From: Robiginitalea sp.
GTDB taxonomy: Bacteria > Bacteroidota > Bacteroidia > Flavobacteriales > Flavobacteriaceae
Reading direction: 5' to 3'
Assembly (NCBI GenBank): GCA_024642005.1
Contig: JAHECA010000029.1
Location: 1-36,576 of the forward strand
DNA length: 36,576 nt
Position numbers and translations under genes: made by a program. Under the pieces are notes generated by a model. That model worked only from the letters and a program-made list of their open reading frames with translations. It searched no databases and was not told the origin of the DNA. Positions 8,001 to 36,485 of this stretch are shown piece by piece (within the stretch, counting starts at the first letter, position 1; each line of letters starts with the position of its first letter).

Positions 8001-8767
8001 TGATTGAAGTCAAAGACCTGCATAAAGCGTTCGGGGGCACTGAGGTGCTCAAAGGGATCAGCACCACCTTCGAAAAGGGCAAGACCAACCTGATTATCGG
8101 GCAAAGCGGTTCGGGGAAAACCGTTTTTATGAAATGCCTGCTGGGCCTGATTACCCCAGACAGCGGCATTATTAGCTATAACGGACAGGTCTATTCCGAG
8201 CTGAGCCCTTCCAAACAACGCGATCTGCGTCAGGAAATGGGAATGGTCTTTCAGGGCAGCGCCCTCTTCGATTCGATGACCGTGGAAGGCAACGTGATGT
8301 TTCCGCTGGAAATGTTTACCCGCAAGTCGCAGGAAGAGATGCAAGACCGGGTAGATTTCGTGTTGAAACGGGTGAACCTGATAGACGCCCATAAAAAATT
8401 CCCTTCGGAGATCTCAGGGGGTATGCAGAAACGCGTGGCCATAGCCAGGGCCATTGTAATGAACCCGCAATACCTGTTCTGCGACGAGCCCAATTCGGGC
8501 CTCGACCCCAAGACGGCTATCATTATCGACAACCTGATCAAGGAAATCACGGAGGAATACAACATAACCACCGTAATCAACACCCACGACATGAACTCGG
8601 TGATGGAGATCGGGGAAAAGATCGTCTTCCTCAAAAATGGCCACAAAGCCTGGGAAGGCACCAAACAGCAAATCTTTCGCACCGACAACAAGGCCGTTAC
8701 CGACTTCGTTTACTCCTCAGAACTTTTCAAAAAGGTACGGCAGATGTACCAGGAAGAGCGCGACTGA
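8000..8767 (+). CDS. mlaF: MlaF-type ABC transporter ATP-binding protein
   Basis: A 255-residue ATPase. Walker A is GQSGSGKT, the Q-loop region is MGMVFQGSALFDSMTV, the signature is SGGMQKR, Walker B is YLFCDEPNSGLDP and the H-loop His lies in NTHDMNSV. The SGGMQKR signature and DEPNSGLDP are typical of the lipid-importing Mla group. It overlaps mlaE by one base, so stoichiometric coupled translation is likely. Its TGA abuts the TGA of the convergent DUF389 gene with no gap (palindrome TGATCA at 8765-8770). In flavobacteria the MCE subunit is commonly encoded elsewhere. Confidence 0.93.
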   Translation: MIEVKDLHKAFGGTEVLKGISTTFEKGKTNLIIGQSGSGKTVFMKCLLGLITPDSGIISYNGQVYSELSPSKQRDLRQEMGMVFQGSALFDSMTVEGNVMFPLEMFTRKSQEEMQDRVDFVLKRVNLIDAHKKFPSEISGGMQKRVAIARAIVMNPQYLFCDEPNSGLDPKTAIIIDNLIKEITEEYNITTVINTHDMNSVMEIGEKIVFLKNGHKAWEGTKQQIFRTDNKAVTDFVYSSELFKKVRQMYQEERD

Positions 8768-22860: not shown

Positions 22861-23154
22861 AGAGGGCCGAGCGCTACCTTCAAAATTGGTATACTGGGTT
22901 ACCGCCACGCGCTTTCAGCGAATGGCGGTGGACCAGAAATAACCGCACTCCTGCAAATAGAGGGCCGAGCGCTACCTTCAAAATTGGTATACTGGGTTAC
23001 CGCCACGCGCTTTCAGCGAATGGCGGTGGACCAGAAATAACCGCACTCCTGCAAATAGAGGGCCGAGCTCTACCTTCAAAATTGGTATACTGGGTTACCG
23101 CCACGCGCTTTCAGCGAATGGCGGTGGACCAGAAATAACCGCACTCCTGCAAAT
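22861..23154. repeat. Three tandem copies of a 98-bp unit
   Basis: Copies at 22861-22958, 22959-23056 and 23057-23154 are identical except for one G-to-T change in the third (GAGCGCTACC to GAGCTCTACC). Each contains a hairpin ACCGCCA-CGC-loop-GCG-AA-TGGCGGT (first copy 22901-22929) and a smaller inverted repeat GGTA/TACC just before it. The unit length is not a multiple of 3, so a frame reading through it changes frame in each copy and no protein is expected. The near identity implies recent expansion. Confidence 0.9.
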
Positions 23155-23162
23155 AGAAAACA

Positions 23163-23270: not shown

Positions 23271-23280
23271 CTGCTTGATG

Positions 23281-23355
23281 TGGGTTATACTGGGCTCGAA
23301 CCAGTGACCTCTGCCCTGTCAAGGCAGCGCTCTGAACCAACTGAGCTAATAACCC
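23281..23355 (-). tRNA. tRNA-Val (anticodon GAC)
   Basis: A full 75-base cloverleaf on the minus strand: acceptor GGGTTAT/ATAACCC with discriminator A, D arm GCTC/GAGC, anticodon arm CTGCC-TTGACAG-GGCAG giving anticodon GAC (reads GUC, valine), variable loop AGGTC, T arm ACTGG-TTCGAAC-CCAGT. The 3' CCA is not encoded, so it must be added after transcription. Confidence 0.96.
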
Positions 23356-23430: not shown

Positions 23431-23442
23431 TGACCGCGATCA
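23431..23442 (+). promoter_or_regulatory. CRP/FNR-like box, distal site upstream of hsp20
   Basis: TGACCGCGATCA fits TGAY-N4-RTCA. It lies 32 bases upstream (about three helical turns) of the proximal hsp20 box, on the same face of the helix. No -7 box at the standard distance is seen, so it probably acts with the proximal site. Confidence 0.45.
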
Positions 23443-23462
23443 ATACGACGGAAAACCCCTGC

Positions 23463-23505
23463 TGACTTGGGTCATTTCGTTTCAGGGAATGTCAATATAC
23501 ATTAG
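23463..23505 (+). promoter_or_regulatory. CRP/FNR-like box plus -7 box of hsp20
   Basis: Box TGACTTGGGTCA at 23463-23474 followed by TT. Exactly 23 bases later TACATTAG (23498-23505) matches TAnnTTTG except for one base. This puts the box near -41.5, a class II activator position. The hsp20 ATG is at 23553. Confidence 0.6.
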
Positions 23506-23552
23506 GGTTCCGATTCAAATCATACAATGTTTAACCCTAAAATACGCGCTTT

Positions 23553-24017
23553 ATGACCCTGGTAAAATTTAAAAGGAGACCTTTTGGAAATCTGTTGACA
23601 CAGGATTTTTTTGACCTCGATAACTTTTTCGATACCCGCATGTGGAATTCTGACCTGTTGGATACCGAATTCTGGAACGGCAAAACCGTTGAACCCGCCC
23701 TGAATATCAAGGAAACCCCAGACCATTTCGAAATTGAACTGGCTGCCCCGGGCTTCGCCAAAAAAGACTTCAAAGTAACCATAGAAGACGGTTGCCTGAA
23801 CATCTCTGCCGAGAAGAAAGTGAAATCAGAAGAAAAAGAAGAAGATTACACCCGTCGTGAATTTAACTACAGTGCCTTTGAAAGGTCGCTGCAACTTCCG
23901 GAAATCGTGAAAGAAGAAGCAGTAGAGGCAAAATACAAAGACGGCATTCTCAGCTTTAACATTCTCAAAAAAGAAGAGGCCAAGAAAAAACCTCCGAAAG
24001 TAATCGAAGTTGGCTGA
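23553..24017 (+). CDS. Hsp20/alpha-crystallin small heat shock protein
   Basis: A 154-residue ATP-independent holdase that binds unfolding proteins. The N-terminal arm is aromatic (DFFDLDNFF, MWNSDLLDTEFW). The alpha-crystallin domain spans about residues 46-142, starting PALNIKETPDHFEIELAAPGFAKKDFKVTIEDGCL-type strands and ending KYKDGILSFNILKKEE. The usual I-x-I tail appears only loosely as KVIEVG. It stands alone between the tRNA and a strong terminator, with two TGAY-N4-RTCA boxes upstream, so control by the linked receiver-CRP protein rather than heat alone is plausible. Confidence 0.95.
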   Translation: MTLVKFKRRPFGNLLTQDFFDLDNFFDTRMWNSDLLDTEFWNGKTVEPALNIKETPDHFEIELAAPGFAKKDFKVTIEDGCLNISAEKKVKSEEKEEDYTRREFNYSAFERSLQLPEIVKEEAVEAKYKDGILSFNILKKEEAKKKPPKVIEVG

Positions 24018-24105
24018 TGCAAAATCGTGTAATGCCCGCGGTACCCCGTAACTACCCTTTTGTTGATTGTCCATAAGCAAACCTTTACGGGCGTCCCGCA
24101 CATGC

Positions 24106-24147
24106 AAGCCCTCCCCTTTCGTTCTCATACGGGGAGGGCTTTTTTTT
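24106..24147 (+). terminator. Terminator of hsp20
   Basis: GCCCTCCCC (24108-24116) pairs with GGGGAGGGC (24131-24139) and is followed by eight T. It lies about 90 bases after the hsp20 stop and separates it from the kinase gene. Confidence 0.88.
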
Positions 24148-24163
24148 GCCGGGGGATGGCATA

Positions 24164-24206
24164 TGACCCTTATCATTCTTTGGTAATTGTCTATAGCGTA
24201 ACTTGT
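24164..24206 (+). promoter_or_regulatory. CRP/FNR-like box plus -7 box of the sensor kinase gene
   Basis: Box TGACCCTTATCA at 24164-24175 followed by TT. After 23 bases comes TAACTTGT (24199-24206), a partial -7 box with TAnnTT intact. The spacing equals that at hsp20, ytxH and usp. It implies that the kinase-regulator operon activates itself. Confidence 0.6.
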
Positions 24207-24256
24207 ATGATCATTTCTTCAGGTACGCCCACAGGGTATTTGAACCGACATGGCTT

Positions 24257-27200
24257 ATGGACCCGCATACCTCTCTTGAATTATTCCGGGAAGTGGGATC
24301 GGAAACTTCCCAGGGCCTGATCCTGACCGACAGGCATGGCCTCATCTTGCAGATGAACGAGGCCGCCGAGCACCTCTCGGGTTACCTGAGCGCCGAATTG
24401 GAAGGCAGCCCGCTGCAAACCCTTATCGCTGAAGCCCTGCCGACTGATTTCCTGACCAAAAAACGCACACCCCATACCTGCACCCTGCAACCCCAGGCAG
24501 GTCCTGAAATCCCTGTGGCGCTAAAATTCAGCCCCATGATTGGCGCAGGGCAGTTCCAGGTACTGCTGTTGCGCGACCTGAGGATGGAACTGCCCGACGA
24601 GGCCAGGATAAAAAGGCAGCAAACCAAGCTGAATGCGCTGCTGGAAGCCATCCCCGACAGTATTTTTTTCCAGGACTTCGACGGTAACTTTCTCGACTAT
24701 TACCCCCCGGTAACCGGTCGTTTTCTGGCGCCAGGCACCCAGGTAAAGGGGCGCAACATCGCTCAGGTGTTTCCAGAAGAACTGGCTACCCGCTTTCTGG
24801 AGGCTTTTAGGGAGATCAGGGCCAAACGCGAAACCGTGCAGTTCGAATTCAGCCAGGGAACCAGGCCGGTATCGCATTTCGAGGCCCGTGTAGTGCCCAT
24901 GAACAACCACAAGATCCTTTCCATCGTCAGGGAGGTTACCGAGAGCGTGCGCAACAAGCAGGAACTGGAGAAGGAAAAAACCCTGCTCCGGAATTACCTC
25001 GACACGGCTGCCTCCATGTTTGTAGTCATCAATGCCGACCACCGGATTCTGATGGCCAATAAAAAGACCTGCGAAGTGCTGGGGTACAGCCATCGGGAGC
25101 TGTTGGAGAAAAACTGGTTCAGCCGGTTTGTGCCCGAAGAAGACCGAAGCCGGCAGGAAGCCCTGTTCGACCGCAGTATCCGTCGGCGCAGCCGGCAGTC
25201 GGAGTACTTCGAAAGCTACGTGATTACGCGCAAGGGAATACGCCGGCTCATCAGGTGGCGAAACGCCCTGCTTCGCGATGAGCGCGGCAAGGTTACCGGC
25301 CTGATCTGCTCAGGGGTAGATGTCACCAAACGCAAAGAAGCCGAGCAGGAGTTATTTGAAAGCGAAGCGCGCAACCGGGCCATCCTCGATGCCATCCCCG
25401 ACCTGATCCTGATCCACGACTGCCAGGGCAGGCTGCTCGACCTGGAAACCTCGGAAGCCCAGCAAGACCTTTTCCCGCAAGGCGGCCTGAAACAGCGGCA
25501 AACCGAGGCGCTTTTCCCTGCAGAAGTAGCCAGGCAAATGCGCGATATCATTGAGAAAGTCTGTCTGAGCGGGGAACCGCAGACCCTCGAATTTACCATG
25601 GCATCCCCCAGGGGGCTGCTGCATTTTGAGGCGCGGTATGTGCATATGGAGGGCCAGAGGGCCCTGGCCGTGGCCCGCGACATCACCCGGTCCAAATCGG
25701 TGCAGAATGTGCTGGAGCTGCGCAACCGGGCCCTGGAAGCTGCCAGCGACGGCATCGTGATCTCCGACGCCCGACTGCCCGACCAGCCAGTTATTTACAG
25801 CAACAGGGCCTTTACCAAAATTACCGGCTATGAGGCCGCGGAAATCCTGGGGCGCAACTGCCGCTTGCTGCAGGGCAAAGATCGCGACCAGGAAAGCATT
25901 GCCCTGATCTCCCAGGCGGTCAGCCAGGGTGAACCCTGCCGGGCCGTGCTGCGCAACTACCGTAAAAACGGGGAACTCTTCTGGAACGAGTTGTCGATTA
26001 CCCCGATCAAAGATACCGTAGGGATAACCACGCATTTTATCGGGGTGCTCCGCGATGTGAGCCAAAAAATCGCCGAGGAAAACCGGCAGCAGGGCATCCG
26101 CAACCTGCTCGAAGCCATAACGGAAGACCGGCCGCTGCCCGAAATAGGGAAACAGCTCTGCGAACTCCTGGTCGCGCAAACGGGCTCGGGGTCGGCCCTG
26201 ATCGCTACGCTGCATGAAGAAACCCGACAACTGCAAGCCCTGGCCAATTACGCCCTTCCCGCTTCCCTGGTCGGGCCTGTTGAATCCATTCCCATTGACC
26301 GTCAACCACCCTGCCCCTGCAGCAAAGCTGCCAACATTAAATCGGAAGTAATCGTGGAAGATATTATGGCCGATAAGCAGTGGAAAGACTGGGATTCGCC
26401 CATGCGGGAAAACGGCTTTATGGCCTGCTGGTCGTTCCCGGTGTTGTCTTCCTCCAACCAGGTATTGGGCACCTGCACGCTGTACCGGCCCGAAACCGGC
26501 GGGCCAGACAGGGAAACCAGGGAACTGATCCGCGAGGTAACCCAGCTTACCGGGGTCGCCGTCGAACGGCATCAGTCACAGGTAAAACTGCGGCAAAGCA
26601 ATGCCCAACTGGAAGCGTATACCCAGATCCTGGAGCAGAGCGTGGAGGAACGTACCCGCGAGGTAAAGGCCACCATGCAAAAACTCCTTAAAACAAACGA
26701 GGAGCTGGAAGAGCAGATCAATACCACACGCCAGGCCGAAAGCCGGGCACTTGCAAGCCAGGCCCTGTTTGCAGCCATCGCCCGCCACTTCCCGAAAGGG
26801 GTTATCATGGTGCTCGACCGCCACCTTGCCTTCGTACACCTTGAAGGGGAAGACATGCCCCGCATGAGCCTGGATACCTGGAATTACCAGGGGCAGCGCC
26901 TGCAAGACCTGCCCGGGTTTGAACCCGCTCAGATCGACCTGCTCAAAGCCCGGATCGGCGAAACCCTGGCGGGCTCGCACCTGTCATTTGAGATGGAATA
27001 CCTCGAACAGGCCTATATGGTGAATTCCACGCCCCTGTCCATTGATGACCAACTCCATTGGGCCCTGCTGGTCTGGAGCAACACCACCGAGATGAAGCAC
27101 ACCGAACAGGAATTGATACGCGCCCTAGAAACCGAGCAGGAGCTCAACGATTTGAAATCGCGGTTCATGTCGATGGCTTCCCACGAATTCCGCACCCCGC

Positions 27201-27859
27201 TAAGCGCCATCCTTTCCTCTGCCATCCTGATCGGCAAACAGAATGAGCCGGGCAGGGAATCCAAGCGCGAGCGCTATGTGAAACAGATCAAGAACAACGT
27301 CAGGAACCTCGTCGTGATTTTGGACGACTTCCTCTCGCTCAGCAAACTGGAAGAGGGGGAAATCAGTTGTCAACCGGCCGATTTTGATTTGAGGGAGCTC
27401 CTGCGTTCGGTACTGGAGGAAATGGAGACCAACCTGAAGGTGGGCCAGCATTTCGTGGAAGACTGCCAGCCCACTTCCTACAAGCTCTGGCAAGATCCGA
27501 AGCTCACCCGTCACATCCTGGTAAACCTGCTTTCGAATGCCATCAAGTACTCGGCTGAAAATTCGACCATAGAGATCGTGCTGGGCCGGGAGGGCAGGCA
27601 CTTTGTGCTTTCGGTGCGCGACGAGGGCATGGGCATCCCTGAAAACGAACAGGGTCAGATCTTCAACCGCTTTTTCAGGGCCCGGAACGCCGAGAACATT
27701 CAGGGTACGGGCCTGGGCTTGAATATCGTGAAACAATACACCGAACTCATGGGCGGAACCATTGAATTTAGCAGTAAATTAGGGGAAGGAAGCCTCTTTA
27801 TACTGAAGCTTCCCAGCTCCTTTAATACCCGAAGCGATGAAAAAGATCCTGATTATTGA
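24257..27859 (+). CDS. Soluble multi-PAS/LOV/GAF sensor histidine kinase
   Basis: A 1200-residue cytosolic kinase without membrane helices. Domains in order: PAS-like segments at about 15-110, 125-245, 255-370 and 385-495; a LOV-type PAS at about 505-605; GAF at about 615-765; a coiled coil near 770-830; one more PAS-like domain at about 835-945; HisKA with phospho-acceptor His976 (SMASHEFRTPLSAI); HATPase with N box (HILVNLLSNAIKYSA) and G boxes (DEGMGIP, GTGLGL). The LOV domain has GRNCRLLQG with photoactive Cys535, FMN-contacting Asn567 and Asn577 (NYRKNG, FWNEL), but Leu598 where Gln is normal (GVL, not GVQ). The GAF carries a CPC motif. The ATG at 24257 was chosen since the TTG at 24203 lies inside the predicted -7 box. 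It overlaps its response regulator by 23 bases. Confidence 0.93.
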   Translation: MDPHTSLELFREVGSETSQGLILTDRHGLILQMNEAAEHLSGYLSAELEGSPLQTLIAEALPTDFLTKKRTPHTCTLQPQAGPEIPVALKFSPMIGAGQFQVLLLRDLRMELPDEARIKRQQTKLNALLEAIPDSIFFQDFDGNFLDYYPPVTGRFLAPGTQVKGRNIAQVFPEELATRFLEAFREIRAKRETVQFEFSQGTRPVSHFEARVVPMNNHKILSIVREVTESVRNKQELEKEKTLLRNYLDTAASMFVVINADHRILMANKKTCEVLGYSHRELLEKNWFSRFVPEEDRSRQEALFDRSIRRRSRQSEYFESYVITRKGIRRLIRWRNALLRDERGKVTGLICSGVDVTKRKEAEQELFESEARNRAILDAIPDLILIHDCQGRLLDLETSEAQQDLFPQGGLKQRQTEALFPAEVARQMRDIIEKVCLSGEPQTLEFTMASPRGLLHFEARYVHMEGQRALAVARDITRSKSVQNVLELRNRALEAASDGIVISDARLPDQPVIYSNRAFTKITGYEAAEILGRNCRLLQGKDRDQESIALISQAVSQGEPCRAVLRNYRKNGELFWNELSITPIKDTVGITTHFIGVLRDVSQKIAEENRQQGIRNLLEAITEDRPLPEIGKQLCELLVAQTGSGSALIATLHEETRQLQALANYALPASLVGPVESIPIDRQPPCPCSKAANIKSEVIVEDIMADKQWKDWDSPMRENGFMACWSFPVLSSSNQVLGTCTLYRPETGGPDRETRELIREVTQLTGVAVERHQSQVKLRQSNAQLEAYTQILEQSVEERTREVKATMQKLLKTNEELEEQINTTRQAESRALASQALFAAIARHFPKGVIMVLDRHLAFVHLEGEDMPRMSLDTWNYQGQRLQDLPGFEPAQIDLLKARIGETLAGSHLSFEMEYLEQAYMVNSTPLSIDDQLHWALLVWSNTTEMKHTEQELIRALETEQELNDLKSRFMSMASHEFRTPLSAILSSAILIGKQNEPGRESKRERYVKQIKNNVRNLVVILDDFLSLSKLEEGEISCQPADFDLRELLRSVLEEMETNLKVGQHFVEDCQPTSYKLWQDPKLTRHILVNLLSNAIKYSAENSTIEIVLGREGRHFVLSVRDEGMGIPENEQGQIFNRFFRARNAENIQGTGLGLNIVKQYTELMGGTIEFSSKLGEGSLFILKLPSSFNTRSDEKDPDY

Positions 27860-28907
27860 AGACAATGAGGACGTTCGGGAAAACACGGCCGATCTGCTCC
27901 ACCTGGCCGGGTACGACACAGCCACTGCCTCTGAAGGGCGCTCTGGGCTGAGATGCGTACAGGATTTCAGGCCCGACCTGATCTTGTGCGACATCATGAT
28001 GCCTGGTATGGATGGCTATCAGGTACTCGAAGCCGTGCTCCAGGACCCTGAAACGGCCCATACCCCCTTTATCTTCCTGACCGCCAAGACCGAGAAGGCC
28101 GATATCCGCAAGGGGATGAACCTGGGTGCCGACGATTACCTGACCAAGCCCTTCGAGGAAGAGGAGCTGTTGGAAGCCATTCGCTCGCGCCTGAGGAAAC
28201 ACGATTTCCTGCGGCAGGAATTCAGCCCGGGCATGCCGGGTATCCGGCAATTCGTGGAATCGGCCGCGGCCTACCTGAACACCGACTACATCGAGCTGAA
28301 GTACTATTCTAAAACCTATGAGGTGCGCGATTACCTCTTTATGGAAGGCGATGGGGCCCACCACCTGTACTTCCTGAAAAAAGGCCTGATTAAAACCTAC
28401 AAGTCTACCGAGGCGGGCAAGGAACTGGTAACGGGCCTGTTCAGCAGCGGGCATTTTGTGGGGCAGCTCTCCCTGTTGAACCCCGGTGGGGTGTATCTGG
28501 AAACAGCCATCGCCATGGAGGTATCCGAAATCTATGCGATTCCCAAGGGCGACTTCATCCACCTGCTGGAAAGCAACCGGGAAGTATCCCGCAAGTTCAT
28601 GGAACTGATTTCGGGTGAACTAATCGATGTGCAGGAACAGCTGGTGCATATGGCCTATTGGCCGGTTAAGCAACGTGTGGCCCGCACGTTGCTGAAACTC
28701 AGGGATGCCGGCCTGATGCAGGAAGAAGGCCCCGAAGGGATCGAAATTGCCCGGGAAGACCTGGCCGGCATGGTGGGAACTGCCACGGAAACCACCATCA
28801 GGGCCCTGTCGGAACTCAAAGCGGATGGGGTAATACGTATGGGGAAGGCACGCCGCATCATCATCGCAGATCCGGAGCGGCTTCAGGAACTGGCCGAATC
28901 AGGGTAG
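27837..28907 (+). CDS. Response regulator: receiver domain fused to a CRP/FNR-type DNA-binding protein
   Basis: A 356-residue transcription factor. Residues 1-120 are a receiver with acidic pocket Glu8/Asp9, phospho-acceptor Asp52 (LILCDIMMPGMDG), a Thr in FLTAK and the Lys in YLTKPF. Residues about 150-270 are a cNMP-binding-type beta roll (LFMEGDGAHHLYFLKKGLIK, GHFVGQLSLL), with no Cys cluster for an iron-sulfur centre. Residues about 280-345 are the winged helix with recognition helix TATETTIRALSEL: Glu318 and Arg322 match the Glu/Arg pair by which CRP and FNR contact TGA/TCA half sites. The gene overlaps the kinase by 23 bases, so it is the likely phosphotransfer partner. It is the best candidate to bind the TGAY-N4-RTCA boxes nearby. 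Confidence 0.93.
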   Translation: MKKILIIEDNEDVRENTADLLHLAGYDTATASEGRSGLRCVQDFRPDLILCDIMMPGMDGYQVLEAVLQDPETAHTPFIFLTAKTEKADIRKGMNLGADDYLTKPFEEEELLEAIRSRLRKHDFLRQEFSPGMPGIRQFVESAAAYLNTDYIELKYYSKTYEVRDYLFMEGDGAHHLYFLKKGLIKTYKSTEAGKELVTGLFSSGHFVGQLSLLNPGGVYLETAIAMEVSEIYAIPKGDFIHLLESNREVSRKFMELISGELIDVQEQLVHMAYWPVKQRVARTLLKLRDAGLMQEEGPEGIEIAREDLAGMVGTATETTIRALSELKADGVIRMGKARRIIIADPERLQELAESG

Positions 28908-28910
28908 TCG

Positions 28911-28926
28911 GGGCGGCGGGCCGCCC
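28911..28926. terminator. GC-rich hairpin between convergent genes
   Basis: GGGCGG-CGGG-CCGCCC lies between the regulator gene and the convergent 77-residue gene. No T-run follows, so its role as terminator is uncertain. Confidence 0.3.
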
Positions 28927-29159
28927 TAGCATGCCTCGCTCCGGGCTGTGAGGCGGCGTTTCACTGCTTTTGCGAACAGGGATAGGGCCACGGTGCGCAA
29001 AAGGGGTTTCAGTGCAAGTTGCAGACCGCTTCTCAAGGTTCCCCCTGCAGCTTTTTCCACGTTGGACCTGATGCGGTAGAGGCTGATCTGCCGTTCCACC
29101 GCCAGGATCTCAAGCTGGGTGTCGATCTCTTTGAAAGAGGAAAAGCGCCGGGTATCCAT
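28926..29159 (-). CDS. Small conserved-type protein, last gene of the ytxH operon
   Basis: A 77-residue protein starting MDTRRFSSFKEIDTQLEILAVERQISLYRIR, a helical soluble half, followed by a hydrophobic/basic C-terminal segment (SGLQLALKPLLRTVALSLFAKAVKRRL) that could lie on the membrane. Proteins of this pattern follow YtxH and holin-like genes in other flavobacteria (it may be a DUF6327-type protein; from memory, not verified). Its ATG overlaps the stop of the previous gene by one base (TGATG). Function unknown. Confidence 0.7.
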   Translation of the reverse strand: MDTRRFSSFKEIDTQLEILAVERQISLYRIRSNVEKAAGGTLRSGLQLALKPLLRTVALSLFAKAVKRRLTARSEAC

Positions 29160-29503
29160 CAGTCGAAGTATAGGTGAGAGAAATGCCTGAGCAACTGGCC
29201 TTCGATGCGGTTGCGCAGCAGGTAGGCCAGTATGAAGATCAGCACATAGGCTGCGCCCACGGCAAAAAACCCGTACGAGGTGCTTCCCATCCAGGCCCCC
29301 AGGCCCAGGGCAGCCCCATAGGAGAGGAACAGAAGGGCCAGCAGGGCGAAAAGCCCGACCAGCATAATTTTTCCCAGAGAAGTTACCAGGTGCATGGCCA
29401 TTTTAAAGACATGCAGTTTCAGGTAGTCTTTTGTGGTATCCAGATACGTCTGTACCTCTCCTACCGCATTATTAAGCGCCTCTTTAGGGGTTGCGGGCTC
29501 CAT
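29159..29503 (-). CDS. Phage_holin_3_6-type two-helix membrane protein
   Basis: A 114-residue protein: a short amphipathic start (VGEVQTYLDTTKDYLKLHVFK), then two long hydrophobic helices (IMLVGLFALLALLFLSYGAALGLGAW and YGFFAVGAAYVLIFILAYLL) and a basic C terminus. This is the pattern of the Phage_holin_3_6/DUF1469 family of stress-linked membrane proteins, which are not phage holins in most bacteria. It lies 6 bases after ytxH and overlaps the next gene. Confidence 0.75.
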   Translation of the reverse strand: MEPATPKEALNNAVGEVQTYLDTTKDYLKLHVFKMAMHLVTSLGKIMLVGLFALLALLFLSYGAALGLGAWMGSTSYGFFAVGAAYVLIFILAYLLRNRIEGQLLRHFSHLYFD

Positions 29504-29509
29504 GGTTGC

Positions 29510-29839
29510 CTATTTCTGGAGTTGGGAATTCTTTTTGCGAAGGTCTTCGAGTTTGCGTTCCAGCCCGGCGATAATATCGTCGGCTTTGTAGCTCATGTGG
29601 CTGAGTGCATCTTCGAGCTTGTCTTCAAAGGCTTCCTTCTTCTCCTTGGCGGTGCGGGTAAGCTCATCCTTGGCATGGGTAATACGGTCGGTCAGGTCGT
29701 GCCTGGTTTCGTCTACTTTGTCTTTGATTTTCTTGCGGGTATTAGACCCTTTGTCGGGGGCGAAGAGGATGCCTACGCCGGCACCGACAGCTGCTCCGGC
29801 CAAAACGGCGAGCAGGATGTTTCCGGTATCACTTTTCAT
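29510..29839 (-). CDS. YtxH-domain stress protein
   Basis: A 109-residue protein with a Gly/Ala-rich N-terminal helix (GNILLAVLAGAAVGAGVGILFAPDKGSNTRKKI), the hallmark of YtxH, and a long charged coiled coil rich in Asp, Lys and Glu after it. YtxH proteins are general-stress proteins in Bacillus and are common with Hsp20 and universal stress proteins. The start at 29839 (MKSDTGN) was chosen over an in-frame codon at 29863. It is the first gene of a three-gene operon with a CRP/FNR-like box in its promoter. Confidence 0.88.
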   Translation of the reverse strand: MKSDTGNILLAVLAGAAVGAGVGILFAPDKGSNTRKKIKDKVDETRHDLTDRITHAKDELTRTAKEKKEAFEDKLEDALSHMSYKADDIIAGLERKLEDLRKKNSQLQK

Positions 29840-29878
29840 GGCTATAAAATTAAGGTTACACATTACTTAAATGTTGCA

Positions 29879-29921
29879 TAAAAGTACTGGCAAGGCATCC
29901 ATTTCAAAATGACCTGGGTCA
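29879..29921 (-). promoter_or_regulatory. CRP/FNR-like box plus -7 box of the ytxH operon
   Basis: Box TGACCTGGGTCA (29910-29921) is a near-perfect palindrome flanked by AAAA and TT. Read on the minus strand, after 23 bases comes TACTTTTA (29886-29879), one base off TAnnTTTG. The ATG of ytxH is 40 bases further on. Confidence 0.6.
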
Positions 29922-29978
29922 TTCGCCTGCGCTTTGAGGCGAGCGCTCGGGGGCTGGTCGGCGCCCGGGAGTGGCAAC

Positions 29979-29990
29979 TGATTTAGATCA
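29979..29990 (+). promoter_or_regulatory. CRP/FNR-like box upstream of the sigma-like gene
   Basis: TGATTTAGATCA followed by TTTTTTTT, the FNR-like TGAT/ATCA variant. Its centre lies 63 bases before the sigma-like ATG. No -7 box is found 23 bases on; TAACTTCT at 30027-30034 is a weak alternative. A perfect palindrome CGAGCGCTCG (29940-29949) lies between this and the ytxH box. Confidence 0.5.
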
Positions 29991-30047
29991 TTTTTTTTCA
30001 GGTAGATAATGCGGAAATTGAGTGAATAACTTCTAATCCTGGGCATC

Positions 30048-30818
30048 ATGAAAGATCCCGTTCGCTACGATCCGCGAGGCGCCGCATTCCAACTCGAGGT
30101 GGCTGCCGGCTTTGAGGAACTTAAACAAGCCAAGGCCGAAGGCCGGCGCGAAGCCTTCAACCAAAAATTGCTGAGCCTGCTCCCGGAGGTGAAACGGTAT
30201 ATTACGCGGGGCCTTCGCCTGGCCCTGGCCAAAGGGGTTATTTCCCACAATAAATACAAACCCGAAGACTTTTTCGACCAGCTCTTCCTGGACGTATACG
30301 ACCGGTTGGGAGAAGTCCCCGGCAGGGATGCTTTTCACGCCTGGCTTTTTGCCCGGGCCGAAATTTTACTGGAAGAGATGGAAGTGAAGGAGATCTTCGA
30401 CGCCTTCCTGTTCGACAACCTCGACGAATTCTCCAGGGCTGAACGTTCTGAAATGGACGAATCGTTCAGCACCGACGGCGATGGCGACCTGATCATGATG
30501 GACGAGCTCGACGATATTTCCTATAAAAACCGCCAGACCCTGCTCCGGAACATCTTCCTGGACGATGCCCACGAAGACCTCATGGCCCTTACCGAAACCG
30601 GGGCCAATCAAAAAAAGATCGAAAGCCAGCTCGACAACGTGCTTTTCGAGTTGCCGGCGAATTTGCGCTCCCTGTTTGAACTGGCATACGAACAGGGCTT
30701 CAGCCCCGAAGACATCGCACGGATCAAGAACATGAAACCCGAACAGGTTAACGACCAGCTCCAAAAAGCCCGCAAGCATTTGCGCCTTGCCCTGGGCGAA
30801 CAAATAGCAAACAGATGA
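30048..30818 (+). CDS. ECF-sigma-like protein
   Basis: A 256-residue protein. Residues about 70-112 (DFFDQLFLDVYDRLGEVPGRDAFHAWLFARAE) resemble sigma region 2 of ECF factors; an acidic linker of about 80 residues follows (SEMDESFSTDGDGDL, MMDELDD); residues about 205-250 (LPANLRSLFELAYEQGF, SPEDIARIKNMKPEQVNDQLQKARKHLRLAL) match the helix-turn-helix of region 4, where SPEDIA-x4-MKPEQV parallels the family. The basic residues of region 2.4 are few, so DNA melting activity is not assured; it may be a divergent sigma or an adaptor. It overlaps the next gene by ATGA. A box at 29979 lies upstream. Confidence 0.75.
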   Translation: MKDPVRYDPRGAAFQLEVAAGFEELKQAKAEGRREAFNQKLLSLLPEVKRYITRGLRLALAKGVISHNKYKPEDFFDQLFLDVYDRLGEVPGRDAFHAWLFARAEILLEEMEVKEIFDAFLFDNLDEFSRAERSEMDESFSTDGDGDLIMMDELDDISYKNRQTLLRNIFLDDAHEDLMALTETGANQKKIESQLDNVLFELPANLRSLFELAYEQGFSPEDIARIKNMKPEQVNDQLQKARKHLRLALGEQIANR

Positions 30819-31243
30819 CACCAATAACCGAAGCCATGAACACCAAAAAACTGGTATCCCGAACCGATTACCTGCTGCCCCGCGGGCTCGACGAATTGCA
30901 CGATCAAAGCAGGGAATGGCTCGACACCCTGGCCTTCTGGAAAGACGAGACCCGCTTTTTCGCCTCCCTGCTGAAACGACATCAGTACGATGTGCCCAAA
31001 ACCCAGGGCTATTCTGGCCTGCTGGCCAATATGGAGCGGTTGCATACGCTGCTCTACGACTACCTTACCGAGGAGATCAAAGCCCATGAGCGCCTGCTGA
31101 GCCGAATCGAAAAAGGGGAAGAGGGGCTGGCCGATTTCGATTACCGGGACCAGCACCGCAAACTGCGCAACAAGATGCGGGTCTTCGAAACCGATTTCAG
31201 GGACTTTAAAAAAATGGTTTTCGGCTATGCCCGGAAATGGTAG
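30815..31243 (+). CDS. Helical protein cotranslated with the sigma-like gene
   Basis: A 142-residue protein, all helix in appearance, with repeated charged heptads (SREWLDTLAFWKDETRFFASLLKRHQYDV; TLLYDYLTEEIKAHERLLSRIEKGEE; FRDFKKMVFGYARKW). No membrane segment, Cys pair or known motif is visible. The ATG at 30815 overlaps the stop of the sigma-like gene; a second ATG at 30836 is possible. Tight coupling suggests it binds or controls the sigma-like protein, but it does not look like a known anti-sigma factor. Confidence 0.65.
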   Translation: MTPITEAMNTKKLVSRTDYLLPRGLDELHDQSREWLDTLAFWKDETRFFASLLKRHQYDVPKTQGYSGLLANMERLHTLLYDYLTEEIKAHERLLSRIEKGEEGLADFDYRDQHRKLRNKMRVFETDFRDFKKMVFGYARKW

Positions 31244-31267
31244 GCCAGCCTGTCTGAAACCGATACT

Positions 31268-32455
31268 TTACCTGAGCAATTCGAAAGCCTGGCGGGCAAT
31301 CTCCAATTCTTCGTCTGTGGGCACCACCCAAATTTTGACCCGCGACCCGTCGGCCTGCAATTCCTGTATGCCCGGGCCGGGCTTCCGGTTCTTCGCCTGA
31401 TCGAGTTCAATGCCCAGGGCCTCAAGGCCTGTGCATACAAGGCTGCGCATGCCGGGGGAGTGCTCGCCTATGCCCGCCGTAAAGACCAGGCCGTCCAGCC
31501 CGTTTAGCACGGCCGTGTAGGCCCCGATATACTTGCGGATGCGGTAGGCGCTTATTTCGAGGGCCAGCTGGCAGGCCTCGTTTCCGGCTTCTGCCTCCCG
31601 TTCTACGTCCCGGAGGTCACTGAAACCCGTTAGCCCCAGCAGGCCGCTTTCCCGGTTGAGCAGGGCCTCGGCCCGTTCGGGGGAATACCCCAGGCTGCCC
31701 GTCAGGTAAAAGACGATCCCCGGGTCGACATCCCCGCTCCGGGTGCCCATTACCAGCCCCCCGGTAGGGGTAAAACCGAGGCTGTGATCGATGCTTTTTC
31801 CACCCCTGATGGCGGTGGCGCTGCACCCGTTGCCCAGGTGGAGGCTGATGAGCTTCCCGTCTGAAGGAAGGCGCGAGGCCAATTCCTGAGAAACATACTT
31901 GTGGCTGGTGCCGTGGAAGCCGTATACCTGTACGCCATGCTCGCGGTACAGGGCTTCGGGCAGGGCATACTGGCGGGCATGGAGGGGAATGGTACGGTGG
32001 AATGCTGTGTCGAACACCCCTACTTGCAGGGCTTCCGGAAACAAAGCCTCGGCCACGCGAATGCCTACCAGGTTGTGCGGGTTGTGCAGGGGGGCCAGGC
32101 GCGACAAATCTTCAATGGCCTCCACTACCTCGGCCGTGATGCGCACGGGGTCGCTGAAGCGGGTGCCGCCGTGCACTACCCGGTGCCCTACGGCAGCTAT
32201 GTCGGTAGTTTTGCCCAGCACGCCCTTTTCGGGGTCGAGCAGGGCGGTGGCGATGAGTTCAAGTGCCCGGGCGTGGTCGCCAGCGGCTACCGGGCGGGAA
32301 TAGTCGCTTTGAGCCGAGCGGAATTGCAGTCGGGCGTCTCCCGCCCCGATACGCTCGACCATCCCCTGGCAGATCCGCCTTTCGGAGGGCATCGCCAGTA
32401 CCTGGAATTTGAGGGAAGAACTCCCGGAATTCAAGACAAGTATCTGTGTTTCCAT
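31268..32455 (-). CDS. ackA: Acetate kinase
   Basis: A 395-residue kinase that converts acetyl-phosphate and ADP to acetate and ATP. The ASKHA signature ILVLNSGSSSLKFQV is at the N terminus; VGHRVVHGG, FHGTSHKYVS, GNGCSATAIRGGKSIDHSLGFTPTGGLVMGTRSGDVDPG and FTAGIGEHSP follow in order. With pta 21 bases upstream in the same direction it forms the Pta-Ack pathway for substrate-level ATP from acetyl-CoA, useful when respiration is limited. Confidence 0.97.
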   Translation of the reverse strand: METQILVLNSGSSSLKFQVLAMPSERRICQGMVERIGAGDARLQFRSAQSDYSRPVAAGDHARALELIATALLDPEKGVLGKTTDIAAVGHRVVHGGTRFSDPVRITAEVVEAIEDLSRLAPLHNPHNLVGIRVAEALFPEALQVGVFDTAFHRTIPLHARQYALPEALYREHGVQVYGFHGTSHKYVSQELASRLPSDGKLISLHLGNGCSATAIRGGKSIDHSLGFTPTGGLVMGTRSGDVDPGIVFYLTGSLGYSPERAEALLNRESGLLGLTGFSDLRDVEREAEAGNEACQLALEISAYRIRKYIGAYTAVLNGLDGLVFTAGIGEHSPGMRSLVCTGLEALGIELDQAKNRKPGPGIQELQADGSRVKIWVVPTDEELEIARQAFELLR

Positions 32456-32476
32456 ATGCGGGATAATGCCTGCTGT

Positions 32477-34570
32477 TTACTCGCCCTGGGCCTGTATGGC
32501 GGTTATGACCACCGTGTTGAATATATCGTCTTCGGTACAGCCCCTGCTCAGGTCGTTCACGGGTTTGTTCAGGCCCTGCAGCATGGGTCCGATGGCCAGG
32601 GCCCCGGTTTCGCGCTGCACCGCCTTGTAGGTGTTGTTGCCCGTATTCAGGTCGGGGAAGACAAAAACGGTGGCGCGCCCGGCCACTTCCGAATCGGGGA
32701 GCTTGCTGCGGCCCACCTTGAGGTCTACAGCGGCGTCGTACTGTATGGGGCCCTCTACCAACAGGTCGGGCCTGCGTTCGCGCACCAGGCGGGTTGCCTC
32801 CCGCACCTTGTCTACTTCGAGGCCCTGGCCAGAGGTGCCCGAGGAATACGACAGCATGGCTACGCGCGCCTCGATGCCGAAGGCCGTGCTGGTATCGGCC
32901 GAGGTAATAGCGATCTCGGCCAGTTCCCCGGCAGTCGGGTTCGGGTTAATGGCACAATCGCCGAAAACGGTTACCCGGTCGGGCAAACACATAAAAAAGA
33001 CAGAAGAAACCAGGGAAACGCCCGGTTTGGTCTTAACGAACTGGAGGGCGGGCCTGATGGTGTGCTGGGTGGTGTGGGTCGCCCCCGACACCATGCCGTC
33101 GGCATCCCCTTTGTAGACCATCATGGTTCCGAAATAAGAGACATCGGCCATCAGGTCCTGGGCCATGGTCAGATCGGTGTTCTTGTGCTTGCGCAGTTCG
33201 TATAGGGTCTGGGCGTACTCCTCAAACTTCGGGGCAGAGCGGGGTTCGAGAATGTGAACCTTGTCGAGGTCGAGGTCGAGCTTGAGCTGCTGAACCTTCT
33301 CGCGGATTTCATCCGGATTCCCCAACAGGGTAATTTCGGCGGCCCGGTGGTGGATCAGCTCGCGGCTGGCCCTCAGTATGCGCTCGTCAGTACCCTCGGG
33401 CAGCACGATATGCTTCCGGTCAGACTGGGCCTTTTTCAGCAGGTTGTACTGGAACATGCGCGGGGTAATCCCCTCTGCACGGAAAGTTACCAGCCTCTCG
33501 GCCAGGGCGTCTTCGGGCACGTAGGTCGAAAAATCCTTGAGGGAGATGTTTATCTTCAGGGCGTTGCCTGCATAGATCTGCGACTGTATCGCCCCGATGC
33601 GGTTGGTGGCGGCAAAGGTGCCTTCCTGCACCGAGAAAATGGGCACGATTTCACTAAGCCCCTTGATGAGCAATATAATGCTGTCTTCCGGGATAAGCCC
33701 CCCGGTAAGGCATATGCCGGAGATGGAGGGGTAATTGGCCGAAATATTGGCCTGGAGGGCCCCGAGGATGATATCGGCCCGGTCTCCCGGGGTAATGACC
33801 AGGGTGTCTTCATCGAGATGGGTCAGGTAATTGCGCAATTGCATGGCCCCCACCCCGAAATGGGCCACCTGTTTTTCCAGGTAGCGCTCCCCGAAAAGCA
33901 GCCGGCCGTCGAGTGCCTCGACGATTTCGCGCACGCTGGGGTTGCCGAGTACCGGGTTGAGGGGTATGGCGGCGGTGAGCACGCCCACGGGCAATTCTTT
34001 TTCCAGGCTGCGCAACACCAATTCCCGGTTTTCAGGCTGGATCATGTTAGCCGTTACCATTAACACCTCTACCCCGTTATCCTTGAAGGAATCGCAGGCC
34101 AGCACCAGGGAATTCACGAACTCGTCCAGCGACTTGCCCACCCCGCTCGAAATGATGATGGTCGGGATGCCCAGGTTTTTGGCCATGAGCACGTTAACGT
34201 CCCATTCAATGATTGACCCCTCGCCGGTGAAATCGGTGCCTTCTACCAGCACGAAATCGAACCGGCTTTCGAGCTGCTTGTATTTTTGGATGATGGTATC
34301 GAGCACCTCGTCTTCCTGGTTGCGGCTGTTCTTGAGCACTACCTCGCTGCGCGTGCAGGCGTAAGCCTCTTCGTAGGCCATGGGCAGGTGGAAGTGCGTG
34401 AGTATGGTTTCGATATGGTTGTCTCGCCGGCCTTCCGGATAGTCGTTGATGATGGGCCGGAAATAGCCCACCCGCGCCATTTTTCCGAGCAAAAGGCGCA
34501 TGAGGCCCAGAGTCAGGATAGACTTGCCGCTGTTGGCCTCGATGGTAGCGATATAAATGGCTTTGTTCAT
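32477..34570 (-). CDS. pta: Phosphate acetyltransferase, long form with N-terminal regulatory domains
   Basis: A 697-residue enzyme that interconverts acetyl-CoA and acetyl-phosphate. The N-terminal domain is a P-loop dethiobiotin-synthetase-like region (YIATIEANSGKSILTLGL), then a DRTGG domain (about 215-330), then the PTA_PTB catalytic domain starting at about residue 385 (IVLPEGTDERILRAS, MVSGATHTT, SSVFFM, EGPIQYDAA). The start was set at 34570 (MNKAIYIATIEANS), as the extension to 34708 has an unrelated Trp/Pro-rich sequence and lies upstream of a good promoter. Cotranscribed with ackA. Confidence 0.95.
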   Translation of the reverse strand: MNKAIYIATIEANSGKSILTLGLMRLLLGKMARVGYFRPIINDYPEGRRDNHIETILTHFHLPMAYEEAYACTRSEVVLKNSRNQEDEVLDTIIQKYKQLESRFDFVLVEGTDFTGEGSIIEWDVNVLMAKNLGIPTIIISSGVGKSLDEFVNSLVLACDSFKDNGVEVLMVTANMIQPENRELVLRSLEKELPVGVLTAAIPLNPVLGNPSVREIVEALDGRLLFGERYLEKQVAHFGVGAMQLRNYLTHLDEDTLVITPGDRADIILGALQANISANYPSISGICLTGGLIPEDSIILLIKGLSEIVPIFSVQEGTFAATNRIGAIQSQIYAGNALKINISLKDFSTYVPEDALAERLVTFRAEGITPRMFQYNLLKKAQSDRKHIVLPEGTDERILRASRELIHHRAAEITLLGNPDEIREKVQQLKLDLDLDKVHILEPRSAPKFEEYAQTLYELRKHKNTDLTMAQDLMADVSYFGTMMVYKGDADGMVSGATHTTQHTIRPALQFVKTKPGVSLVSSVFFMCLPDRVTVFGDCAINPNPTAGELAEIAITSADTSTAFGIEARVAMLSYSSGTSGQGLEVDKVREATRLVRERRPDLLVEGPIQYDAAVDLKVGRSKLPDSEVAGRATVFVFPDLNTGNNTYKAVQRETGALAIGPMLQGLNKPVNDLSRGCTEDDIFNTVVITAIQAQGE

Positions 34571-34597
34571 GCGTGCATCACAAGTAAGTTCGCGCTG

Positions 34598-34628
34598 CAA
34601 AGGTAGGGCATTGCGAGGGTCTGTAAAA
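34598..34628 (-). promoter_or_regulatory. Promoter of pta-ackA
   Basis: On the minus strand TACCTTTG (34605-34598) is a perfect -7 box, 19 bases after TTTT (34628-34625). The predicted start lies about 23 bases before the pta ATG, which supports that start. Confidence 0.55.
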
Positions 34629-34695
34629 GGGTAAAATCCTATAGATGGAACACCCGCCCAGGGGCGTGAAACTGACATTAGCCAGCCCGGGCTAA

Positions 34696-34738
34696 TGACC
34701 CACATCATTTACAAACCAAGGTGTCAAACGTACATTTG
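34696..34738 (+). promoter_or_regulatory. CRP/FNR-like box plus perfect -7 box of usp
   Basis: Box TGACCCACATCA (34696-34707) followed by TT. Exactly 23 bases later stands TACATTTG (34731-34738), a perfect TAnnTTTG. Transcription would start near 34743, with the box at -41.5. It is the best example of the shared arrangement. Confidence 0.65.
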
Positions 34739-34754
34739 GTTAAAATCAATCCCC

Positions 34755-35615
34755 ATGAAATCGATATTATACGCCACGGATTACTCAAACGCCTCCCTGG
34801 CTGCGTTGCACTGTGCTCAGTCGTTGAGCGTGATGCTCAGAATGCGGTTGGTACTCACTCATGTTTACGACCTTCCCACCGCCCTGGGCACCCAACTCGA
34901 AGGCCCGTTTCCCGACCTGCGCTCCGACTCCCTTACCCACAACCGGAAGAAACTCGAGGCCTTTTACGACAAGAACCGCCTCGAAGACCCGACCCCTGTG
35001 GAACGCTGTGCCGAACCGGTAGAGAATATGTCTGTGCTGTCGGGCATTATCTCCAAGGCCAATGAATGGAATGCCCGCCTTATTGTGGTCGGCATGAAGG
35101 GCGAACACCTGGTAAAGGAAATGGTGATGGGCAGTACCACCAAAAAACTCATCGACAAAGCCCCATGCCCCGTGCTGGCCGTACCGGCCAACCACCACTT
35201 CGACAAGGTGTCAAGCCTGGTCTACGCCACCGACTTTGAACTGGAAGACCTCCGGGCGCTCGAAAAAGTAGTCGACCTGGCCAGGGCCTTTTCGGCCGAA
35301 ATACGCGTGGTGCACGTTACCAGCGACAAAGAGTATTACGGCCCGGCCCAGATGGAATGGTTCAAGGCCATGCTGCGCGAACGGGTGCATTACGACAAGA
35401 TGTACTTCGAACTGCTGGAATCTGACGACGTGGTCCACTCCCTGCAAGATTACTCCCAACACCTGGGTGCCGGCCTGATCGGCATGCTGGAGCGTGCACA
35501 GAAAGGCGGCGTGAAAAAATTGTTCCACCGCGACCTGGTCAAACAGATGGCATCGAACAACAGCATTCCGCTGCTCAGCTTTAACGAGCAGAACCTGCAG
35601 ACGTACTTTTACTGA
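34755..35615 (+). CDS. Universal stress protein, tandem Usp domains
   Basis: A 286-residue cytosolic protein with two Usp folds. The N-terminal one begins MKSILYATDYSNASLAALHCA and keeps the ATP-binding G-x2-G-x9-G-S motif (GMKGEHLVKEMVMGS); the C-terminal one begins SSLVYATDFELEDLRALEK and lacks that motif, ending in QKGGVKKLFHRDLVKQMA. The start at 34755 was chosen since an upstream in-frame codon lies inside the CRP-like box. It is divergent from pta and convergent with the next usp. Confidence 0.9.
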   Translation: MKSILYATDYSNASLAALHCAQSLSVMLRMRLVLTHVYDLPTALGTQLEGPFPDLRSDSLTHNRKKLEAFYDKNRLEDPTPVERCAEPVENMSVLSGIISKANEWNARLIVVGMKGEHLVKEMVMGSTTKKLIDKAPCPVLAVPANHHFDKVSSLVYATDFELEDLRALEKVVDLARAFSAEIRVVHVTSDKEYYGPAQMEWFKAMLRERVHYDKMYFELLESDDVVHSLQDYSQHLGAGLIGMLERAQKGGVKKLFHRDLVKQMASNNSIPLLSFNEQNLQTYFY

Positions 35616-35636: not shown

Positions 35637-36485
35637 CTACCCCAGTTGCGGTAATATCAACAGTGGAAGGTCGCTCTCGAACGCCACCCGTTTGAGAACG
35701 GGTTCGCGTATCAGGGTTTCGAAGAAGGGATGCCGGTGATGGACCAGGGCGATCAGGTCGGCCTCCGACTCACGACTGTAGCGGGTAAGGGTGCGGCTTA
35801 CCTTCTTGCCCAGCGGTATTTCTTCAGTTTTATGGGCAACCTGTTGCAACAGGTCTTCCAATTGCTTTTTATGGGCTTCCTGGGTCGGGTTCAGCCGGAA
35901 TTCGGCGGCCGCGTAAACGATATGGAGCCTGGCCTTCCAGGCCCGCAACAGTTCCAGTAAGGGCTGCAATTCAAAGGCCTCGAAGGGGCGCAGGTAATCG
36001 GTCGGAAACAACACTTTTTGCAGGCGTTGCAGGTCATAGGCCTGGGGCACGGCCACAATCGGTTTGTTTTTCACCGTGCGGATAACCCGCACCGTATTGC
36101 TGCCCATAAAAACCCTTTTGGCACCGGTGGCGCCCTGGGTACCCATGACGATCAGGTCGACGGTCTCCGAGTCGAGCAGGTCGCGGATAACCGCGGTGAG
36201 CTCACCCTGGCGGCAAACGGTGCGAAACCGGTGGTGGGGGTTCTGGTACTCTTTTTCCAGATAGGCGGTTACTTCTGACATCTTTGCTTCCGATGCCTTT
36301 TTAAGCTCCTCGTAGACGGCCCAGAGCTGCTTTTCGCCCCGGTCGGCCAGCAGGTAGCCAACCCCGGGCTGGTAGGCGTGGACGATCAGGAATTCGCACT
36401 GCTGCCTGTCGAACATCTTGAGGGCCGTAAAGAGGGCATTCCACGCATTGTTGGAAAAGTCGGTGGGCAACAAGATCGTTTTCAT
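35637..36485 (-). CDS. Universal stress protein, tandem Usp domains
   Basis: A 282-residue protein starting MKTILLPTDFSNNAWNALFTAL, with the intact motif GTQGATGAKRVFMGSN (G-x2-G-x9-G-S) in the first domain and a second, degenerate domain starting KVLFPTDYLRPFEAFEL. The mid region (KASEAKMSEVTAYLEKEYQNPHHRF) is helical. It follows another usp gene by 10 bases and so is part of a minus-strand operon of stress proteins that continues past the window. Confidence 0.92.
   Translation of the reverse strand: MKTILLPTDFSNNAWNALFTALKMFDRQQCEFLIVHAYQPGVGYLLADRGEKQLWAVYEELKKASEAKMSEVTAYLEKEYQNPHHRFRTVCRQGELTAVIRDLLDSETVDLIVMGTQGATGAKRVFMGSNTVRVIRTVKNKPIVAVPQAYDLQRLQKVLFPTDYLRPFEAFELQPLLELLRAWKARLHIVYAAAEFRLNPTQEAHKKQLEDLLQQVAHKTEEIPLGKKVSRTLTRYSRESEADLIALVHHRHPFFETLIREPVLKRVAFESDLPLLILPQLG

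Follow-up and report, generated by a model that had tools for sequence, protein, structure and literature searches.

A TGAY-N4-RTCA promoter box spaced 23 bases from the -7 element in Robiginitalea, and its candidate receiver-CRP regulator encoded beside a LOV-domain kinase

Which protein reads the palindromic boxes found upstream of a group of stress-type genes in Robiginitalea sp., and are these boxes a property of one locus or of the whole genome? The stretch analysed (the window) comprises 36,576 nt of contig JAHECA010000029.1 (assembly GCA_024642005.1), and all coordinates given here count from its first letter. An initial annotation had described six TGAY-N4-RTCA boxes in the window as one set, forming a local CRP/FNR-type regulon, and had proposed as its regulator the protein encoded at 27837-28907, for which we have coined the name RCR. 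The results presented below make it likely that the boxes are class II activator sites, with RCR acting as main regulator at the window promoters and an FNR-like protein, encoded elsewhere in the genome, serving low-oxygen genes.

All six boxes are indeed present at the annotated coordinates, and matches to TGAYNNNNRTCA (TGAY-N4-RTCA) amount to seven in the window against 1.25 expected, a number which none of 100 shuffles reaches. The six were said to share less than 1 kb of intergenic DNA, a figure which is slightly generous, being this DNA 1,871 bases long between 22636 and 36485 with the gene starts as chosen in this analysis. Five of the six are directly followed by TT on the 3' side, as had been noted, the exception being the box at 23431. 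The annotated -7 boxes at hsp20, the kinase, ytxH and usp are likewise recovered, with TANNTT located exactly 23 bases 3' of the palindrome in all four cases (4 of 14 strand-wise readings, binomial P ~5e-7). At box 29979, upstream of the sig4-like gene, the element found at the same distance is GAAATTGA (GANNTT instead of TANNTT); since G or C replaces the first T at this promoter in nine out of nine loci, five of the six reported boxes obey the 23-base spacing when this variant is counted. The palindromes are the following:

23431..23442, + strand: second box upstream of hsp20, lacking TANNTT at 23 bases and with no counterpart in five relatives
23463..23474, + strand: box upstream of hsp20 (TGACTTGGGTCA), 23 bases before the -7-like TACATTAG at 23498-23505
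24164..24175, + strand: box upstream of the kinase-RCR operon, 23 bases before the -7-like TAACTTGT at 24199-24206
29910..29921, - strand: box upstream of ytxH, 23 bases from the -7-like TACTTTTA at 29879-29886
29979..29990, + strand: box upstream of the sigma-70-region-4 gene, 23 bases before GAAATTGA at 30014-30021
34696..34707, + strand: box upstream of usp, 23 bases before the -7-like TACATTTG at 34731-34738
8001..8012, + strand: seventh TGAYNNNNRTCA match, at the start of ORF 8000-8767 and not among the 23-base sites; probably due to chance

The same arrangement extends well beyond this locus. The genome (3.44 Mb in 78 contigs) contains 201 palindromes, corresponding to 402 strand-wise readings, in agreement with the annotated background of one such 12-mer per ~16 kb. 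The full-genome scan which the initial annotation had called for (box-N23-TANNTT, hereafter the composite box) returns 45 strand-wise matches, against none for the reversed control and an expectation of 0.8 to 1.9, a range which reflects three sources for the TANNTT rate (the window, the fetched stretches or the intergenic DNA of the window). These 45 readings use 42 palindromes, three of which serve both directions, and in 40 of them a mechanically chosen start codon is found at most 150 bases from the assumed transcription start. In 80 related loci (1.59 Mb), TANNTT stands at a distance of 23 bases in 388 of 1,110 strand-wise palindrome readings, while the other distances from 1 to 59 average 10.7 readings with a maximum of 27, the immediate neighbours giving 8 (22 bases) and 17 (24 bases). 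Clearly, counts in the window and in the genome, as well as the spacing, are far above expectation, and a chance origin of the boxes is rejected. A purely local regulon is also rejected, as the 45 composite sites are spread over many contigs and many of 149 genomes of the family have composite counts clearly higher than the reversed control. The outcome is a promoter rule valid across the Flavobacteriaceae: a box, exactly 23 bases, and TANNTT. The same scan of related loci has a second and much smaller peak at distance zero, 71 of the 1,110 readings showing TANNTT immediately 3' of the palindrome.

With the TA of the -7 element placed at -12 relative to an assumed start, the palindrome centre falls by arithmetic at -41.5, and the fixed distance supports the CRP/FNR-type activator geometry that had been put forward. 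This location would resemble that of Escherichia coli FNR and CRP class II promoters, and the recognition helix has its Glu and Arg in common with these proteins, whereas here the core is TGAY-N4-RTCA, usually followed by T, and is combined with the Bacteroidota TANNTT element. Some CRP/FNR proteins act as repressors and sequence cannot tell activation from repression, so that the palindromes might be repressor sites; we regard this as very improbable, given that a constant 23-base distance to the -7 element, with no overlap, is the geometry of activators as known from E. coli class II promoters.

Concerning the protein that binds these sites, three genes of the genome encode Crp-type helix-turn-helix (HTH) domains above the cut-off: RCR, an FNR-like protein on contig C9 and a protein on contig C59. 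RCR combines a receiver with a cNMP-binding fold (PF00027, E 3e-18) and a Crp-type HTH (PF13545, E 3e-17), which places it in the CRP/FNR family, and among the best 60 of 341 PDB matches none extends over the receiver together with the entire CRP part. As a ligand of RCR, cAMP was considered as a candidate. Its cysteines are confined to the receiver, as judged from the translation, and the Fe-S cysteine set of FNR proper is thus lacking. In CRP/FNR proteins a Glu and an Arg of the recognition helix read the TGA half-site. These correspond to Glu318 and Arg322 of RCR, conserved in 91 of 91 homologues and also found in the FNR-like protein, and indeed the helices of RCR (VGTATETTIRALSE) and of the FNR-like protein (VGTATESCIRILSE) are nearly identical, with Glu and Arg common to both. 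The C59 protein was set aside as it has Val at the position of the needed Glu. There would then be two candidate regulators for the boxes, RCR and the FNR-like protein, of which the latter probably uses the same kind of site; the protein at 27837-28907 stands as a candidate but not as the sole one. In respect to signal reception, the receiver residues of RCR are intact in all 91 homologues (Asp52, a Ser or Thr, and Lys104), and in 88 of 91 loci the gene immediately 5' of RCR encodes a histidine kinase, which points to this kinase as its cognate partner. Beyond what had been annotated, the candidate regulator carries a fused receiver and shares its operon with a LOV-domain kinase.

Having both proteins nearly the same recognition helix, one could consider that the FNR-like protein serves all boxes, those of the window included, with RCR being a passenger or binding elsewhere. 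Its gene adjoins those of a copper-ATPase-like protein and of a COX1-type oxidase, the latter with a composite box, several targets are low-oxygen genes, and the composite box occurs in many genomes where RCR is not detected. We nevertheless find this explanation unlikely. RCR lies within a conserved cluster and its operon carries a box, and in the hsp20 and ytxH sample described below three of the box-less genomes (G006, G059 and G068) do have FNR-like matches. The distribution of the boxes across the family also speaks for RCR. The 149 genomes were classed by an RCR-A match below 1e-100 (11 genomes), an RCR-B match only, below 1e-60 (55), or none (83). Mere presence of the composite box, observed in 146 of the 149, says little because the reversed control reaches 8 per strand and some genomes are no higher than control (G010, G039 and G073 among them). 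The median count per genome is 47 with RCR-A, 27 with RCR-B only and 12 without RCR (with versus without, Mann-Whitney P 2e-13, for genomes of one family which are not independent).

Individual promoters follow the same trend. They were examined in 40 stretches for hsp20 and 40 for ytxH, allowing 22-24 bases and GANNTT, and these rows constitute a sample and not a census, having been picked by hand from longer listings, best matches first and then for class balance. A composite box precedes hsp20 in 10 of 11 stretches with RCR-A, 15 of 15 with RCR-B and 3 of 14 without RCR (25/26 versus 3/14), and ytxH in 6 of 12, 6 of 17 and none of 11, respectively (12/29 versus 0/11), in disagreement with a regulon of the FNR-like protein alone. 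The hsp20 difference persists in rows at most 54% identical to the hsp20 of the window (10/11 with RCR versus 2/13 without). In this sample the boxes of hsp20 and ytxH thus follow RCR, also at low identity, which favours RCR at these promoters; FNR is favoured at the respiratory ones, with a likely overlap.

Such an overlap would be inherent to a scheme where RCR and the FNR-like protein compete for or share sites, integrating oxygen and light (or another kinase signal) at one promoter. This scheme overlaps with the explanation favoured here and does not exclude it, and we consider it a reasonable possibility, if somewhat less probable than its negation. It agrees with the shared helix residues and with the common core and spacing, and cco boxes differ from hsp20 and usp boxes only in the centre and 3' flank. 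However, the cco boxes, being orthologues, do not count as independent cases, which leaves any sub-motif specificity putative; we looked for a sub-motif that would cleanly tell FNR sites from RCR sites, and claim none, as this orthology confounds it.

To follow the boxes in related loci, the genes of this region have to be considered, which are:

23553..24017, + strand: hsp20, small heat-shock protein (Pfam PF00011, E 2e-23)
24257..27859, + strand: multi-PAS/LOV/GAF histidine kinase (Pfam PAS, GAF, HisKA, HATPase_c), start codon inferred
25706..26086, + strand: LOV domain of the kinase, about residues 484-610, with GRNCRLLQG, Cys535 and Leu for the usual Gln
27837..28907, + strand: RCR, response regulator with receiver, cNMP_binding and HTH_Crp domains (Pfam), overlapping the kinase stop
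29510..29839, - strand: ytxH, YtxH-like small protein (name from the initial annotation), with homologues 66-79% identical in RCR-A loci
30048..30818, + strand: sig4-like protein, sigma-70 region 4, ECF-like (Pfam PF08281; TIGR02937 above cut-off)
31268..32455, - strand: ackA, acetate kinase (Pfam E 5e-134)
32477..34570, - strand: pta, phosphate acetyltransferase (Pfam E 1e-129, for an ORF to 34708), start inferred
34755..35615, + strand: usp, universal stress protein (Pfam Usp, E 1e-27, with a longer ORF from 34695)
35637..36485, - strand: second universal stress protein (Pfam Usp, E 1e-27), with no composite box before the gene within the window

The presence of PorV agrees with a Flavobacteriaceae-type genome, and the nearest relatives of RCR belong to Robiginitalea (65-69% identity). 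Three Robiginitalea loci (L046-L048) keep the order hsp20, kinase, RCR, sig4-like, ackA, pta and usp, with ytxH in one of the three, and two Maribacter loci (L049, L050) keep hsp20, RCR, ytxH, ackA and pta, with no kinase beside RCR. The box at 23 bases is conserved before hsp20 in all five, before usp in L046-L048 (3/3) and before ytxH in L046, L049 and L050 (3/3); it is also found at ytxH in six of six further RCR-A stretches holding this gene, out of ten such loci. In both Maribacter loci a box with this spacing stands ~210 bases upstream of RCR itself. Distances to the kinase were measured from open frames, as starts extrapolated from partial alignments are unreliable and can catch the hsp20 box. 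By this measure a composite box lies less than 200 bases from the opening of the kinase frame in the window and at most 60 bases from it in L046-L048 (3/3), and in the ten further RCR-A loci it lies within 200 bases in six, at 459-672 bases in three and is absent in one. The box of the sig4-like gene is kept in nine of nine loci examined, each at exactly 23 bases, with GANNTT in the window and L046-L048 and CANNTT in L143, L144, L145, L148 and L150, as if this promoter had a conserved weaker -7 element. As for the six boxes being one set, five are conserved but box 23431 is not: none of the five relatives L046-L050 has a second hsp20 box, and 23431 is rejected as a functional site as its position is not conserved, being probably non-functional or auxiliary.

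The nature of the targets was evaluated by running Pfam on the window genes and on 40 of the 41 targets outside the window, omitting one (t8) whose start resembles that of another (t5); eight of the 40 have no Pfam match. Four universal stress proteins carry a composite box (one in the window and three elsewhere), and other stress-type targets are Hsp20, a BON protein, a thioredoxin and a flavodoxin. Low-oxygen-type targets comprise a NiFe hydrogenase small subunit, cytochromes c, a pyruvate-type ferredoxin oxidoreductase, a ferredoxin, OmpW, a radical SAM protein which we take to be HemN, a COX1 terminal oxidase, presumably of the cbb3 type, and a polyferredoxin (start 465 bases away) which we read as RnfB. 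A B12-dependent ribonucleotide reductase (TIGR02504, above cut-off), an RtcB protein (start 449 bases away) and a release-factor-like protein, which also matches, below NCBI's cut-off, a family of ribosome hibernation factors, are further targets of the stress type. The predicted regulon thus spans the whole genome and family and covers stress and low-oxygen genes. The mycobacterial DosR dormancy regulon likewise includes a small heat-shock protein, several Usp and a B12-dependent (class II) ribonucleotide reductase; the likeness ends at gene content, DosR belonging to the NarL-type response regulators and its site being unrelated.

A distinct question is which signal enters the system. The LOV domain of the window kinase matches LOV proteins of the PDB (E 5e-36) and the NCBIfam family YtvA_fam (4e-43, below its cut-off), and contains the adduct-forming Cys of the GxNCRxLQ motif (GRNCRLLQG), present in L046-L048 as well. 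In a tree of 91 RCR proteins, the RCR of the window falls within a clade of 16 members (RCR-A, support 99/96), and a LOV match with the Cys is found in 13 of 14 kinases of this clade (11 of 14 by a stricter regular expression) versus 1 of 74 other kinases (L107). A FixL-like heme-PAS signature, searched with a crude regular expression, occurs in 50 of these 74 kinases and has no match in the kinase of the window. In the one heme-PAS kinase examined (L060) the best PDB match is FixL (6e-15), with the His that serves as heme ligand and the Arg both aligned. Two kinases, L107 (8038-9936) and L150, have both a LOV domain and the FixL-like signature. The canonical signalling Gln in the last LOV strand is replaced by Leu in the window and by Leu, Val and Ile in L046-L048; over the 13 RCR-A domains Gln occupies the position in six, His in two further members (the kinases of L143 and L148) and Ser in one. 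According to a study on YF1/BjFixJ (PMC9098866), Gln is generally dispensable, LOV proteins without it generally still signalling; ~350 natural Gln-less LOV proteins exist, Gln-to-Leu variants work and Gln-to-His abolished the response in assays. The kinase beside RCR appears able to sense blue light, and the sign of any light effect is not readable from sequence.

These results suggest the following mechanism. The LOV kinase would set the phosphorylation of Asp52 in RCR, and RCR, once phosphorylated, would bind the palindrome, whose centre would lie near -41.5; boxes placed 23 bases before the Bacteroidota -7 element would act as class II sites of the CRP/FNR type, from which bound RCR would activate a dormancy or stress set that includes its own kinase-RCR operon (positive autoregulation). 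The promoters of hsp20, the kinase-RCR operon, ytxH, the sig4-like gene and usp most likely have RCR as their main regulator. Low-oxygen genes would be served by the FNR-like protein, which has these recognition residues too and would use boxes of this type, with some overlap between the two sets. Blue light would be the input to the kinase in the RCR-A clade, most paralogous systems having the FixL-like heme-PAS signature.

In the rhizobial FixL-FixJ-FixK oxygen cascade, FixJ acts on the transcription of fixK. Kinase, receiver and CRP/FNR output stand in series in both cases, and the heme-PAS signature of the non-A kinases is a further likeness; RCR differs in fusing receiver and CRP/FNR output, which would skip the FixJ-to-fixK transcription step, and the window kinase differs in its LOV domain. 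The system would best be read as a fusion resembling FixJ plus FixK, which drives a dormancy-type regulon from class II promoters and in which oxygen and light sensors have been swapped for one another. A LOV domain is also coupled to a general-stress type output in YtvA-sigma B and Caulobacter LovK, by partner-switching of sigma factors there and by a DNA-binding domain of the CRP/FNR type here. YF1/BjFixJ (PMC9098866) similarly pairs a LOV-bearing histidine kinase with a response regulator, and Gln-to-Leu variants signal there, but that system is man-made, whereas the LOV/heme split described here occurs among natural paralogous systems, as a natural counterpart to engineered LOV-FixL swaps. 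Class II activation by CRP/FNR, two-component control and LOV kinases are already known; their combination here, in which a receiver-CRP fusion and one promoter code go together with a LOV/heme split of the sensors, is new as far as the literature search shows, in which no paper on such a fusion with a LOV kinase in Flavobacteria was found among open-licence papers, a restriction which makes this a weak negative.

Several observations weigh against this interpretation. The hsp20 and ytxH rows were selected by hand and are confounded by paralogy, and the six ytxH rows of RCR-A genomes without the box are second copies and G054. Some genomes in which no RCR was detected have many boxes (53 in G062, 36 in G106, 36 in G147), "no RCR" meaning no match below 1e-60 in genomes that are often drafts; therefore RCR is not the sole user of the box, and the notion that it is indispensable for it was rejected. 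In four of the ten further RCR-A loci the 200 bases next to the opening of the kinase frame contain no composite box. Finally, besides having Leu at the signalling Gln position, the LOV domain of the window has no Arg in the helix that follows, a residue which is present there in some relatives. We hold with a degree of confidence just short of even the broader proposal that the paralogous systems of Flavobacteriaceae share a fused receiver-CRP output and a promoter code, a mostly FixL-like line and a LOV line letting oxygen and light feed one dormancy-type regulon, and that the LOV domains of the Robiginitalea clade signal without the canonical Gln. If true, light or oxygen would be linked to a resting-state programme in these bacteria, with RCR as regulator candidate at stress genes.

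Other features of the region are of minor relevance. Contig C64 (L131) opens with a Usp that in L046 follows the last genes of the window; therefore, from the gene order of L046, C64 probably continues the contig of the window and extends the Usp island. On the other side, a 98-base tandem repeat in three copies (99% matching) spans 22861-23157, just before a tRNA-Val gene (anticodon gac) at 23280-23355 on the - strand.

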